A stretch of DNA of 64,000 bases from SAR202 cluster bacterium bin22 (GTDB taxonomy: Bacteria; Chloroflexota; Dehalococcoidia; Lucifugimonadales; UBA3495): positions 1 to 64,000 of the forward strand of contig MPMM01000010.1 of the NCBI GenBank assembly GCA_002238505.1, written 5' to 3'. A program made the position numbers and the translations under genes. Below the pieces are notes generated by a model. The model saw only the letters and a program-made list of their open reading frames with translations, was not told the DNA's origin and did not search any database. Below, piece after piece: positions 7,266-14,940 of the stretch. Position 1 is the stretch's first letter; the number at the start of each line of letters is the position of its first letter.

Positions 7266-8108
7266 CTATCCGAAGTATTCTGCCAGGGCCAGAACCATAC
7301 TGCCCATGTGAGGGTGCTCCGGTTCCACGTCAACGGGAATTTCAGCTTCCCGAAGCCGCCGGCTGCATACCGGACCCACGGAGGCCACCACCGCGCCCGC
7401 ATCCCGGCCGCTATTGCCTGCCGCCGTCCGGGCGCCCAGCGAGGTCCGCAGCGCATCTTCCTTCCCAGCCTTGGCGGCTATGGTAAGAAGGTTGCCAACC
7501 TGGGGCTGGCTGGTAAAGGCAATGGCGTCTATCCTGCCGCCGGCCAGATCATCAATCAAAGCCAGCACCGGCGCCTCATCTTCGGGCAGACCCCAGGTGT
7601 ACAGGGTGACCTGCCGCACCTCGGCGCCCCGCTCTTCCAGGTGCGCGACCAGGGGCCGATTGGGGCCGCCGTAATGCTGCAGGGCCACAACCTTGCCGGA
7701 GAGGTCCCATTCCTGCAGGCTGTTGATCAGGTCCGCCGTGGTGTAGGGCTCGGGAGGCATCACGTCGATGTGAATCTTGTGCTGGCGCAGTACGCGGGCC
7801 GGCTTGGGGCTGCGGGCAATCACGGTAAGCCGGTCCAGCGCCGCCACAAATTCCTCTTCCCGCCCCATGTTGGCGGCGGTGGAAACGAGGGCCTGCGTGC
7901 CCACGCCGGTAAGCAGGGTTACGGCGTCAATGCGGCCGCCGCAGGTATCCACGACCAGTTGTTGAACCTCGGGGCTGTCCTTGAGGTAAATCTCCTGAAG
8001 CACCGGGGCGGCATAGGGAATACCGCCATGCCGTTCGATAAGCCCGGCCATCTCCGAGGTCATCCGGGCTTCCACAAATGCAACAGTCCTGTCGTTCAAA
8101 GAGGCCAA
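7266..8108 (-). CDS. hemD: uroporphyrinogen-III synthase (HemD family)
   Basis: A 280-residue two-lobed enzyme that cyclises hydroxymethylbilane with inversion of ring D, the branch point to siroheme and haem. Landmarks: R-T-V-A-F-V-E-A-R-M (7-16), R-I-D-A-V-T-L-L-T-G-V-G-T in lobe 1, and R-I-D-A-I-A-F-T-S-Q-P-Q-V in lobe 2, the repeated substrate-cleft motif of the family. The start is a TTG without a clear ribosome site; it is chosen because family proteins begin about here. It lies third in an operon with sulfite reductase and a TM2 protein, so it probably serves siroheme supply. A second HemD domain is fused to CobA at 52.2 kb. Confidence 0.8.
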   Translation of the reverse strand: MASLNDRTVAFVEARMTSEMAGLIERHGGIPYAAPVLQEIYLKDSPEVQQLVVDTCGGRIDAVTLLTGVGTQALVSTAANMGREEEFVAALDRLTVIARSPKPARVLRQHKIHIDVMPPEPYTTADLINSLQEWDLSGKVVALQHYGGPNRPLVAHLEERGAEVRQVTLYTWGLPEDEAPVLALIDDLAGGRIDAIAFTSQPQVGNLLTIAAKAGKEDALRTSLGARTAAGNSGRDAGAVVASVGPVCSRRLREAEIPVDVEPEHPHMGSMVLALAEYFG

Positions 8109-8483: not shown

Positions 8484-10331
8484 CTATACGGCGCACTCGC
8501 CTTCGCCTCGCTCGAGCACATAGTTGTCGGTACGTTCCCAGTCCACGTACAGGTCTCCGCCGACCTCCTTGCTGGCAGCCGATTCCTGGATGGCGGCGGC
8601 AACTGACGTCAGTTCCTCGATGCCCACGCGGTCCAGGAAGTTGTTGAAGTTCTCGCCGTCCTGCCGGTTGTCCTTGTAGTAGCTGGCAATCTCGCGGACC
8701 ATGCCAGGCACCAGCTTGGCCGGAACCTTAACCTTCGGAATGCGGGTTCCAATCCGCGAGTCCTCGACCTTGTTATCGCCATAATTGCCGCCCAGGAACA
8801 TTTCGTAGGCGGGAATCTGGCTGCCGTCGGGACCCTTGATGGCCGCGCCGTGGAATCCGATGTTGGCGATGTGGTGCAGGCCGCAGCCGTTGGGGCAGCC
8901 GCTCATCTTGATGCGGATCTTCTTGACCCCGTCGTCCTGCATGAGGCCATTCCACGTCCCCAGTTCCTCGCGGATGGCCTTGGCCAGTCCCATGGACGCG
9001 GTGATGCCCAGCTTGCAGCTGTCGGTGCCGGGGCAGGAAACCACGTTGTTGATGGTATGAGCGCCGGGTTCGTTCAGATCAATGGCGCCCAGGGCCTCCC
9101 ACACATCGTGCAGGTATCCGTCGGGCACCCACCGCAGGGCCAGGTTCTGTTCCTGGGTGGCGTTGGAACGTCCACCCGTATAGCGGCGCAGAATATCGGC
9201 CAGGCCCCGGAACTGGGCCGGAGTCAGGTCGCCCCGGACGGGCTTGACGTAAACGATGTTGTACCCTGCCTGCTTCTGGGCCACCACGTTGGTTTCCAGC
9301 CAGTAGTTATACTCGCCGCTGCCGTTGCCGGACCCGTTGCCGGATCCGTTGGTGGACCCGGAGGGCAATGCCGGGGGATTCTCCCGGTAAATGTCCTCGT
9401 CGGCGATATACTCATTGAGGTCTATGGGGCCAATTTCAGCCAGTTCAGCCTCGACCAGGTTGCGGAATTCCTCCAGCCCAATGCGGTCAATCAGCACCTT
9501 CAGGCGGGCCATCATCCGGTTCTTGCGCAGGGACTCGGCCTTGTCGAACACCGTCCAGACAGCCAGGGCCAGCCGCAGGTAGTCCTCCTCGGGCAGGAAC
9601 TCATAAAGGGGCTTGGCCAGCCTGGGCATTATGGAAGTGCCGCCGCCCACATAAACCTTGAAGCCCCGCTTCTCCACGCCGTTCTCCACCCTTACCTGGG
9701 ACACATAGGTCAGGTCCTGAATGGCCGCGGCCACAGTATCGCGGCTGTCAATGCCGGTAAAGGCGGACTTGAACTTGCGGGGGAAGGACTGGGTGATGGG
9801 GTGGCGCACCCCAAAACGTACGTAGCCGGTCAGGTACGGAGTCGGGTCAAAAATTTCCTCGGCGTCCACACCCGCCGTCGGCGAACCGACCACGTTGCGC
9901 ACGGTGTTGCCGCAGGCTTCGCGGCTGGTCAGCCCTACCGTCCCCAGCTTGCGCAGAACGTCGGGACATTCGGGCAGGGGGATGTGGTGGAACTGGATGT
10001 TTTCCCGCGTGGTTATGTGGCCCTTGCCCAGGGGAGCATACTGTTCCGCAATGTCGCCCAGCGCGTCCATGGCGTCTGCGGTGAGAATGCCGCCCGGGAT
10101 CTTGACCCGGATCATCTGGACGTCGGCCTGCCGCTGGCCGTAAACACCCTGCCTCAGGCGGAAGGGTGTGAACTGCAGGTTGTCCTGCTCGCCCGACTGG
10201 AACAGGGCCGATTCCTCCTCAAACCGCTGGACCTCGCTCTCCATGAACGGGATAACGCCCGGCGCGGTCGAGGCCAGGTCAAGGCTCTCGCGGTAGATTT
10301 CCTCCTGGGACTGTCCTGTCTTGATGGTCAC
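8484..10331 (-). CDS. sir: ferredoxin-dependent sulfite (nitrite/sulfite) reductase
   Basis: About 615 residues; reduces sulfite to sulfide by six electrons with siroheme and a [4Fe-4S] cluster. From the GTG start, T-R-E-N-I-Q-F-H-H lies near 108-116 and the cluster cysteines near 432, 438, 478 and 482 (C-x5-C and C-x3-C in C-P-G-T-D-S-C and C-P-N-G-C). The two halves are joined by an odd Gly-Ser-Asn linker (about 323-338). An ATG at 10409 would extend it by 26 residues, but the GTG at 10331 has AGGAGG 5 bases upstream and the ATG lies inside the terminator tail. The family includes nitrite reductases; the cysteine-type leader upstream favours sulfite. Confidence 0.88.
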   Translation of the reverse strand: MTIKTGQSQEEIYRESLDLASTAPGVIPFMESEVQRFEEESALFQSGEQDNLQFTPFRLRQGVYGQRQADVQMIRVKIPGGILTADAMDALGDIAEQYAPLGKGHITTRENIQFHHIPLPECPDVLRKLGTVGLTSREACGNTVRNVVGSPTAGVDAEEIFDPTPYLTGYVRFGVRHPITQSFPRKFKSAFTGIDSRDTVAAAIQDLTYVSQVRVENGVEKRGFKVYVGGGTSIMPRLAKPLYEFLPEEDYLRLALAVWTVFDKAESLRKNRMMARLKVLIDRIGLEEFRNLVEAELAEIGPIDLNEYIADEDIYRENPPALPSGSTNGSGNGSGNGSGEYNYWLETNVVAQKQAGYNIVYVKPVRGDLTPAQFRGLADILRRYTGGRSNATQEQNLALRWVPDGYLHDVWEALGAIDLNEPGAHTINNVVSCPGTDSCKLGITASMGLAKAIREELGTWNGLMQDDGVKKIRIKMSGCPNGCGLHHIANIGFHGAAIKGPDGSQIPAYEMFLGGNYGDNKVEDSRIGTRIPKVKVPAKLVPGMVREIASYYKDNRQDGENFNNFLDRVGIEELTSVAAAIQESAASKEVGGDLYVDWERTDNYVLERGEGECAV

Positions 10332-10407
10332 TGTGGCCTCCTGTTGCTCACCACGTTTATTGCCTGGCTGTCTTTGAATTCGTTGCCTTTGTGCCAAAAA
10401 TGAAGTC

Positions 10408-10446
10408 AAAAAATTAGCCCACCAAACGGCGTAACATTTGGTGGGC
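10408..10446 (-). terminator. intrinsic terminator in the sulfite reductase leader (attenuator)
   Basis: A perfect 10-bp stem (10417-10426 with 10437-10446, 10-base loop) is followed on the minus strand by TAATTTTTT. It lies between the leader peptide and the reductase start, so read-through past it is needed to express the operon. Confidence 0.8.
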
Positions 10447-10484
10447 GCTGGGGTGTCTGTTGGACGTGAAGACTTACCCGCTCC

Positions 10485-10535
10485 CTATGAGGGCGGACAA
10501 GTACAAGTGCAGGTGCGGAGATTGTTGACTAACAT
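10485..10535 (-). CDS. Cys-rich leader peptide of the sulfite reductase operon
   Basis: Sixteen codons reading MLVNNLRTCTCTCPPS then TAG. Three of five consecutive codons are Cys (TGC, TGT, TGT), an extreme density for a protein this short. The ATG lies about 2 bases downstream of the predicted transcription start, so it would be translated as a leaderless mRNA. It is followed by 38 bases and then by an intrinsic terminator ahead of the sulfite reductase. This is the layout of amino-acid attenuation, and cysteine is the end product of sulfite reduction. Inference: ribosome stalling at the Cys codons when Cys-tRNA is scarce prevents termination. It has no role as a protein. Confidence 0.7.
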   Translation of the reverse strand: MLVNNLRTCTCTCPPS

Positions 10536-10543
10536 TGTCGGGA

Positions 10544-10572
10544 ATTGTAATAGCGCCAAAAACCGTTGTCAA
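10544..10572 (-). promoter_or_regulatory. strong sigma70-type promoter of sulfite reductase operon
   Basis: Minus strand TTGACA (10567-10572) and TACAAT (10544-10549) with exactly 17 bases between. Predicted start about 10537, two bases before the leader peptide ATG. Confidence 0.75.
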
Positions 10573-10581
10573 CAGGTCTTG

Positions 10582-10600
10582 ATACTAATTTGGGTTTAAC
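10582..10600 (-). promoter_or_regulatory. candidate activator/operator site
   Basis: Minus-strand GTTAAACCCAAATTAGTAT lies just upstream of the -35 box. It matches 993-1010 with one internal difference, suggesting that one regulator controls both the sulfite reductase operon and the small-protein operon. Confidence 0.4.
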
Positions 10601-11899: not shown

Positions 11900-13033
11900 C
11901 TAATCCGGGCTGCTGAACCGGGGCATTACCTTGTCGCCGAAGTTCTCCAGGTTCTTCAGCATCTGGCCCTGGGTAAGTCCGGCGTGGGCAAACTCCACCA
12001 GCAAGGACTCCAGATTGCAGACCTCCTGCAATTCCTGCACCCTTTCCGCCACGTTATCCGGTGAACCCACCAGCAGGGTTCGCGGCTCCAGGAAATCCCA
12101 GCCCAGTTCCACTGAATCCGCCAGTTCCTCGCCCGGGTTAGTGAACACCTCCCGTCCCCGAAAGGGGTCGTTGAAGATGAAGGCGGACATTACCGCCCTT
12201 TCCGCCTCGGCCCGGGCCTGTTCCATAGACGTCGAAACGTAGGTGGACCGCATCACCGCCTGATCTTCTCCCAACCTGAAGGTACGCCCCTCAACGCCGG
12301 ACCTGACCTCAGCGTACAGTAGCATCCGCTGCCGGATGCGCTGGGGCGGCGGCTGCCAGTAACAGGCCTTTAACCTCATCTCTGCGGCAGTGGAAACCGA
12401 CCTGTCTGTGGACACCGTCATCCACAATGGGGGATGGGGCTTCTGGTATGGCCTGGGCGTTACCCGCAGCCTGGCCACGCGTCCATCCTCGTGCCAGGCC
12501 GGGTCTGGTGGAAACCCGGGATGGGAAAAGACCGTGTCCTCGGCGGGAAAGGTATAGTTGGCCCCCCGGTGGGAGAAGTACTCTTCCGTCCAGATTTTCC
12601 GGACAATCTCCACCGTCTCCTGGAACAGTTCCCGGTTCTCCTGGTCCTTGCGGGGGTCGGCATTGGGGTGAAACTGGGGTCCCTCGTAGGGCCACACGCC
12701 TCGGCCAAAGCCAACCTCCACCCGTCCCCTGGTCATGTTGTCCAGCATTGCCAGATCTTCCGCCAGCCGAATGGGGTGCCACCAGGTAGCTATGTTGGCC
12801 ATTTGGCCGATGCGAATTCTGGAAGTGTGGGCAGCCAGGTCCGCGCCCAGCAGGATGGGATTGGGCAGATCGCCCGAACCGTACAGCCCGAAGTGATGCT
12901 CTCCCAGCCATATGGCCTCAAAGCCAAGTTCTTCGGCAAGGATCGCCTGCTGTCGCAGATTCTCTATGATATCCGCGGCGCCGGTTGCCTCTCCTGCGGA
13001 GGCCGCCACGGTGGTAAAGGCAGCAAACTTCAT
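11900..13033 (-). CDS. LLM class flavin-dependent oxidoreductase
   Basis: A 377-residue bacterial-luciferase-like monooxygenase, TIM barrel, expected to use reduced FMN to oxygenate an organic substrate. Motifs: E-E-L-G-F-E-A-I-W-L-G-E-H-H-F (about 34-48) and D-N-M-T-R-G-R-V-E-V-G-F-G-R-G (about 101-115), the flavin-binding strand. The start at 13033 (MKFAAFTT) has AGAGGTG 6 bases upstream; a start five codons earlier has no ribosome site. Cytosolic; the substrate cannot be read. Another LLM gene lies divergently at 13.75 kb with repeat elements between, so this is a small cluster of this enzyme class. Confidence 0.87.
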   Translation of the reverse strand: MKFAAFTTVAASAGEATGAADIIENLRQQAILAEELGFEAIWLGEHHFGLYGSGDLPNPILLGADLAAHTSRIRIGQMANIATWWHPIRLAEDLAMLDNMTRGRVEVGFGRGVWPYEGPQFHPNADPRKDQENRELFQETVEIVRKIWTEEYFSHRGANYTFPAEDTVFSHPGFPPDPAWHEDGRVARLRVTPRPYQKPHPPLWMTVSTDRSVSTAAEMRLKACYWQPPPQRIRQRMLLYAEVRSGVEGRTFRLGEDQAVMRSTYVSTSMEQARAEAERAVMSAFIFNDPFRGREVFTNPGEELADSVELGWDFLEPRTLLVGSPDNVAERVQELQEVCNLESLLVEFAHAGLTQGQMLKNLENFGDKVMPRFSSPD

Positions 13034-13070
13034 CGGACACCTCTGCAAGGCTGGTTGGTCGGCGCCTTCT

Positions 13071-13749: not shown

Positions 13750-14940
13750 ATGATTACCAAATTTGGCAGCCTGTTTGCCGGGCACGTGGACTTTGAAGAT
13801 ATCGGGCTGGACGCCACCGCGTTGAATGACCGCTGGCTGCCGGACGAGCATCTGGCCACCGTTTTCGACAAGGCGGAGGCCATTGCCGGCGTGATGGACC
13901 GGCTGGACTACGAGACTTTCTGGATGGCCGAGCACCATTTCCAGCGAGAAGGGTACGAGTGCATCCCTAATCTGATGCTGTTTGCCGTCCATCTGGCCCA
14001 CCTGACCAAGAAGCTCAAGATCGGATGCGGCTTCAACATCGCTCCCATGTGGAACCCCCTGCGGATGGCGGAAGACTACGCCACCGCCGACATTCTGACC
14101 GACGGCCGCGTGGTGTTCGGCGTGGGCCGGGGATACCACACCCGCGAAGTCGAAACCTTTGACGCCCCGATAATTGACCAGGACGCCAACCGCGAGCTGT
14201 TTGAGGAGCAGGTGGAGGTGATGTTCAAGGCCTTCAACGAGCGCTCCTTCTCCCACCACGGCAAGCACTACAACATCCCGCCCGACGTACCCTACCGTGG
14301 CTACGACCTTAAGGAAATTACCCTGGTTCCTCGCCCCAAATACCTGCCGGTAGAGTGCTACCAGCCGGTGGTGGGCGGCAGCCAGCGCGCCATGGACTTC
14401 ATGGTCAAGCACGGCATCAAGGGCATGATCGGCGGCGGGGCGGCGGCCGGCGGCGCTACCCTGGATGTGGTGCGCAGATGGCAGGAAACCCTGGCCAGGG
14501 CCGGCAAGGAGACCGAACTGGGCGGAGACCTCATTATCGGGTTCTCCATTCACCTCGCCGATACCGAGGAAAAGGGCATGAACGAGGCCAGGCTGTTCTT
14601 CGAAGAGAACATGAAGATGTTCGCGCCCCTGGGCTTCTTCCACGGCCTGTCTGACGACCAGCTAATTGCCCTCGGCGACCCCTCCCGGGCGCGTTCCGCC
14701 GGACTGCCGACAATCGAGGACGGCGTCCGTGCCGGCTCCTGGCTATGCGGCCCTCCGGAACTGGTGGCGGAAAAACTCAACAAAATCCAGGAAATGTACC
14801 CCGGCCTGACCCAGATTAACGTGGGTTCGGTGGTGGGCACCCCGCAAAAAGTCATCCTGGAACAACTGGAATGGTTCGGCAAAGAGGTCATGCCCCAGTT
14901 CAAGGCCCAGGCCAACGTGGCCGTCCCGGCCGACAACTAG
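13750..14940 (+). CDS. LLM class flavin-dependent oxidoreductase
   Basis: A 396-residue luciferase-like monooxygenase. Landmarks are Y-E-T-F-W-M-A-E-H-H-F (about 56-66), G-C-G-F-N-I-A-P-M-W-N-P-L-R (about 94-107) and D-I-L-T-D-G-R-V-V-F-G-V-G-R-G-Y (about 115-130). It belongs to a different branch from the 11.9-kb paralogue, with longer loops. GGAGGGG lies 6 bases before the ATG, and a TATAAT box stands at 13701-13706 about 45 bases before the start. Cytosolic FMN enzyme; substrate unknown. The stop at 14938-14940 abuts a repeat array. Confidence 0.88.
   Translation: MITKFGSLFAGHVDFEDIGLDATALNDRWLPDEHLATVFDKAEAIAGVMDRLDYETFWMAEHHFQREGYECIPNLMLFAVHLAHLTKKLKIGCGFNIAPMWNPLRMAEDYATADILTDGRVVFGVGRGYHTREVETFDAPIIDQDANRELFEEQVEVMFKAFNERSFSHHGKHYNIPPDVPYRGYDLKEITLVPRPKYLPVECYQPVVGGSQRAMDFMVKHGIKGMIGGGAAAGGATLDVVRRWQETLARAGKETELGGDLIIGFSIHLADTEEKGMNEARLFFEENMKMFAPLGFFHGLSDDQLIALGDPSRARSAGLPTIEDGVRAGSWLCGPPELVAEKLNKIQEMYPGLTQINVGSVVGTPQKVILEQLEWFGKEVMPQFKAQANVAVPADN

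Follow-up and report, generated by a model that had tools for sequence, protein, structure and literature searches.

A putative cysteine-specific transcription attenuator upstream of sulfite reductase and other sulfur genes in uncultured Dehalococcoidia

The siroheme reductase gene in the window, i.e. the whole 64,000-nt stretch of DNA that was analysed, is preceded by a short leader reading frame with clustered Cys codons and by an intrinsic terminator located between this leader and the first gene. The same layout recurs in related genomes before the reductase and before other sulfur genes, and its RNA segments covary in alternative pairings. On the basis of these sequence features, we consider it very probable that the region is a ribosome-mediated, cysteine-specific transcription attenuator of the classical four-segment type, which would control several operons.

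Promoter, leader and terminator upstream of the reductase

A preliminary description of this DNA had listed a consensus promoter (TTGACA, 17 nt, TACAAT), a 16-codon frame containing Cys codons, a 10-bp terminator stem with a T tail, and a reductase with its own AGGAGG and GTG start. All of these elements are present (Table 1). The terminator stem has 10 Watson-Crick pairs and reaches 12 bp when a U-G pair and the closing G-C pair are counted.

Table 1. Features of the attenuator region and of the genes behind it in the window
Feature	Position	Strand	Basis
Promoter, TTGACA (10572-10567), 17-nt spacer, TACAAT (10549-10544)	10544..10572	-	11/12 consensus matches
Leader reading frame MLVNNLRTCTCTCPPS, ATG at 10535, stop TAG at 10487-10485	10485..10535	-	16 codons
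Leader Cys codons 9, 11 and 13	10511-10509, 10505-10503, 10499-10497	-	Sequence; conserved positions with synonymous TGC/TGT changes
Segment 1 (last Cys-Pro-Pro codons), forms the 5′ arm of hairpin 1:2, which has most of the stop codon in its loop	10490..10502	-	Fold and 1:2 swap test
Segment 2, GGGAGCGGGUAAGUCU, pairs with segment 1 or segment 3	10470..10485	-	Folds and swap tests
Segment 3, AGACACCCCAGCGCCC, antiterminator partner of segment 2, overlaps the terminator 5′ arm	10443..10458	-	Masked nascent RNA fold and 2:3 swap test
Intrinsic terminator hairpin (3:4), 12 bp, loop of 6	10417..10446	-	ΔG -19.9 kcal/mol, hairpin alone
T-rich tail TAATTTTTT	10408..10416	-	Sequence
Reductase Shine-Dalgarno AGGAGG, ~75 nt beyond the terminator stem	10337..10342	-	Sequence
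Siroheme/4Fe-4S reductase, GTG start at 10331	8484..10331	-	Pfam NIR_SIR and NIR_SIR_ferr; PDB search
hemD, uroporphyrinogen-III synthase (siroheme supply)	7266..8108	-	Pfam HEM4

Only one other promoter-like site occurs within 5 kb, and in the relatives TTGACA and the 17-nt spacer are nearly invariant. The leader ATG is located 8 nt downstream of the -10 box. Judging from this promoter geometry, transcription starting about 7 nt past the -10 box would leave a 5′ UTR of 0-2 nt, and the leader is thus predicted to be near-leaderless. A search of the 4.4-Mb genome for TTGACA-N16-18-TANNNT-N6-9-ATG gives 8 sites, of which this one alone is followed by a Cys cluster; given this rarity and the recurrence of the layout across relatives, the combination of promoter and leader is beyond chance. 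The leader RNA also folds more stably than its dinucleotide shuffles (z = -3.7).

Of 59 related genomes, 54 have a match to the reductase, a few of these matches being distant paralogues; the named relatives are metagenome-assembled genomes of Chloroflexota/Dehalococcoidia. Relatives lacking the frame or its Cys codons had been named as grounds for refuting the attenuator, and this check did not refute it: all 32 same-family loci with examinable upstream DNA carry the promoter, the leader and the terminator before the reductase. In these loci the last Cys of the leader is always kept (32/32), while the Cys two codons before it is found in 30 and the one four codons before it in 25. The Cys codons interchange between TGC and TGT, and the codons between them vary (Thr, Ser, Ile, Cys and others).

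Members of about 13 further families of the order have the same leader-terminator layout, and one additional weak case (f11) has no T tract. Six families of the order have no Cys leader directly before the reductase (f3, f6, f17, f22, f24 and f27), and neither do 23 reductase loci from other orders of the class. In three loci from other orders (L142, L145 and L148), repeats like AACTTTAT and AAGTTGATA(A/G)A stand before the reductase in place of the Cys leader; these might be a repressor operator.

Another possibility considered was that the terminator serves the glyoxalase gene upstream. This was rejected, since the glyoxalase is found in few close relatives only, whereas the leader and terminator are conserved.

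In two loci, a second Cys-rich small frame is found between the terminator and the structural gene, namely FCTCRCTCSEQGCCACS before the reductase of L105 and CSCMCTCTCC before the TauE-type gene of L102. These frames are possibly a second layer of control or a small protein.

Alternative RNA pairings and predicted mechanism

Directly after the Cys codons lies segment 2, typically GGGGGCAGG, which has two possible partners, the final Cys-Pro codons (1:2) and CCTGCGCCC in the 5′ arm of the terminator (2:3). The latter is the competing antiterminator that the preliminary description had suggested looking for: it overlaps the 5′ arm of the terminator, is exclusive with the 1:2 hairpin according to both folds and swap tests, and covaries with the terminator. 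In the swap test, the duplex energies of native segment pairs are compared with those of pairs exchanged between loci. Segment 2 was anchored on the last Cys codon, because the stop codon shifts between loci and anchoring on it gave a weaker picture.

Across all 52 loci, native pairs bind better than exchanged ones (z of -6.7 for 2:3 and -6.8 for 1:2). Among the 21 divergent loci, z is -5.3 for 2:3, with none of 10,000 permutations as low, -3.1 for 1:2 and -13.1 for 3:4, compared to -0.3 for both the same-composition reversed control and the unrelated pair 1:3. The 2:3 pairing is kept despite clear sequence change in L031/L033 (GGGAGGUG with CACCCCCC), L036 (GGAGAGG with CCUCUCC) and L104 (GGGACAGG with CCUGUGCCC). 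In the window itself, the pairing is broken by bulges and amounts to -13.7 kcal/mol.

It should be noted that folding tells less than the swap test. When segment 1 of the nascent RNA is masked to mimic a stalled ribosome, 2:3 forms with 6 or more pairs in 47 of 52 loci, but the same is true of 72% of the shuffled and 81% of the swapped RNAs. Pair counts from MFE folds were therefore rejected as proof of an antiterminator; since shuffled controls score 72%, only the energy-based swap tests discriminate, and the count is simply consistent with 2:3 pairing.

The hairpin and its T-rich tail are found in 52 of 53 attenuators and covary with segment 2, which speaks against translation attenuation of the kind attributed to mycobacterial polycysteine leaders. 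There, stalled ribosomes would free the downstream Shine-Dalgarno and the hairpin would be incidental. Leaderless-type Cys frames are indeed the hallmark of the mycobacterial system (described in PMC13236596), and the AGGAGG of the window is able to pair with a UCUCC of the leader. However, the Shine-Dalgarno lies beyond the terminator, and consistent sequestration by the leader was not found, with pairing averaging only 0.20 over 44 loci. Transcription attenuation thus fits better than the mycobacterial mode, which we regard as improbable here.

The frame could also encode a functional Cys-rich peptide, for example a metal- or thiol-binding one, with the terminator as the ordinary end of a tiny gene. 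Cys makes up 197 of the 983 residues (20%) in 53 leaders, and the ending CTCPPT is frequent. Against this, the residues between the Cys vary freely, as do the length of the frame and the position of its stop; the Pro-Pro codons coincide with RNA pairing; and in almost every locus found, a cysteine or sulfur gene follows the frame immediately. In several leaders, for example L013, L019 and L022, the frame has lost its usual stop codon and reads through segment 2, yet the RNA segment is retained, which indicates that the RNA is conserved rather than the end of the peptide. A peptide function is therefore very unlikely. Less likely still is a cysteine-binding riboswitch, a T-box or a protein-bound RNA with the frame as a bystander. 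Such an element would account for the conserved alternative structures, but the helices are short and have no conserved core, whereas the Cys codons are conserved; a search of the leader region against Rfam gave no match at curated thresholds and only insignificant ones at a permissive threshold.

For the preferred reading, transcription attenuation, we infer the start site, ribosome stalling, termination and read-through as follows. Transcription would start at or within about 2 bases of the leader ATG, with the ribosome trailing the polymerase. With ample Cys-tRNA, the ribosome would reach the stop codon and mask segment 2, such that the 3:4 terminator forms and stops the polymerase near 10408. 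Without translation of the leader, segment 2 would be taken up by 1:2 pairing, and again the terminator would form. When Cys-tRNA is short, the ribosome would stall on the Cys codons and mask segment 1, freeing segment 2 for 2:3 pairing, which would block the terminator and allow transcription of sulfite reductase and hemD. The same device on moeB-cysM in the window genome, and on cysH and transporter genes in relatives, would make up a multi-operon cysteine circuit.

Other sulfur genes and the substrate of the reductase

The window genome has a second copy of the device (L210, contig C16 near 451 kb), located before a moeB/ThiF gene that is followed by a PLP-dependent cysteine-synthase-like gene. 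It has the leader MNPIRKERICMCTCPRT, a promoter of the form TTGACA-17-TAGACT, and a hairpin with a T tract. Exact-promoter searches of the window genome found no further Cys leaders; they missed this one because its ATG is further from the -10 box, and it was found by a gene-based search. In total, 16 same-family loci, including that of the window genome, have the device before moeB/ThiF-cysM, and a further family has one moeB attenuator without the usual promoter match. In most of this set, 10-11 nt separate the -10 box from the leader ATG, and other spacings occur too. All 17 moeB attenuators have terminators, and their 2:3 pairing is conserved, with undetectable covariation (z -0.6, n = 17).

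In other families, the device is found before cysH (L103 and L150), before TauE/SafE transporter genes (L102 and L112) and before a DUF4395 gene (L114). One genome (G036) lacks the leader at the reductase but has it before cysH. The device is thus positioned upstream of reductase-hemD, moeB-cysM, cysH and TauE genes, and its control of them is what we infer from this placement. Phylum-wide matches to a CC pattern were mostly out of frame, and the three in-frame candidates that were examined (L191, L196 and L197) were rejected, having no sulfur genes or comparable terminator behind them.

By eye, the frame preceding the moeB leader of L104 resembles an Rrf2-type regulator, and a similar frame lies before moeB in L212, a locus without the leader. 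An Rrf2-type regulator and the attenuator may coexist as two controls on moeB.

The earlier view that the reductase heads an operon agrees with the place of hemD, which lies downstream of it in the same-family loci with downstream sequence examined, with few exceptions. The nearest solved relative of the reductase is M. tuberculosis NirA/SirA (1zj8; E 2e-69 with the family profile). Residue C140, invariant in 8 aligned relatives, aligns with chain position 172 of 1zj8, which we take to be Cys161 of the M. tuberculosis enzyme. Plant nitrite reductases have a different residue at the equivalent position. Judging from C140, the Cys leader and the association with moeB-cysM and cysH, sulfite rather than nitrite is the likely substrate, and the earlier proposal to this effect gains support from the same leader standing before moeB-cysM, cysH and TauE-type genes. 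For siroheme reductases that follow this leader, a role in assimilatory sulfite reduction is very likely, even if they are annotated as nitrite reductases, and the leader could serve as a sequence-based functional label in uncultured organisms.

The window genome has no match to PF01507 (cysH, APS/PAPS reductase) and keeps the sulfite reductase, so sulfite would have to come from another source. Among 20 family genomes searched, PF01507 gives weak matches in a few, and sulfite reductase is again kept. Members of the SAR202 clade of Chloroflexota have been proposed to cleave organosulfur compounds (PMC5395668), and such cleavage is perhaps the source of sulfite here.

Two luciferase-like monooxygenases are encoded near the reductase (11903-13048 on the minus strand and 13750-14937 on the plus strand). 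They belong to a family, PF00296, in which certain enzymes liberate sulfite from sulfonates.

Taken together, the attenuator, read by near-leaderless ribosomes, is probably an order-wide device of uncultured Dehalococcoidia that moves between sulfur operons. Where no APS/PAPS reductase is recognisable, it would couple cysteine demand to sulfite obtained otherwise, perhaps from organosulfur compounds.

Comparison with known systems

The device resembles classical trp- and his-type attenuators in its leader rich in codons for the end product, its 1:2 pause hairpin, 2:3 antiterminator and 3:4 terminator with T tract, and its location before genes making that amino acid. It differs from them in the predicted sensing of cysteine, in the predicted near-leaderless translation of the leader, in its occurrence in Chloroflexota and in being common to several sulfur operons. 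A 2010 survey placed leader-peptide systems outside Proteobacteria and Actinobacteria only at histidine genes in Firmicutes (PMC2965389), and we found no report of leader-peptide attenuation in Chloroflexota in the open-access literature searched. The present findings would extend this form of control to that phylum.

Mycobacterial polycysteine leaderless uORFs resemble the device in being short Cys-cluster frames before cysteine and sulfur operons, in the near-leaderless type predicted for the leader here, and in the multi-operon circuit proposed for it. These uORFs were reportedly treated by Canestrari et al. in Mol Microbiol in 2020. They are described as translation attenuation (PMC13236596; the uORFs also in PMC9094748), in contrast to the intrinsic terminator and antiterminator found here. 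The preliminary description had invoked them as a precedent, but their mechanism is reported as translational and is hence a different one.

In Actinobacteria, attenuators of the trp operon have been predicted for Corynebacterium and Streptomyces (PMC1262725). Also comparable are the actinobacterial Cys leader peptides (acnes; cbs in B. longum), which likewise precede cys genes and have a stretch of Cys codons close to the stop. Those leaders were reported to have no conserved hairpin able to act as a terminator (Seliverstov et al. 2005, PMC1262725), whereas a terminator hairpin is present here in 52 of 53 loci, together with an antiterminator. Thus, the two phyla appear to read Cys codons with different outputs.
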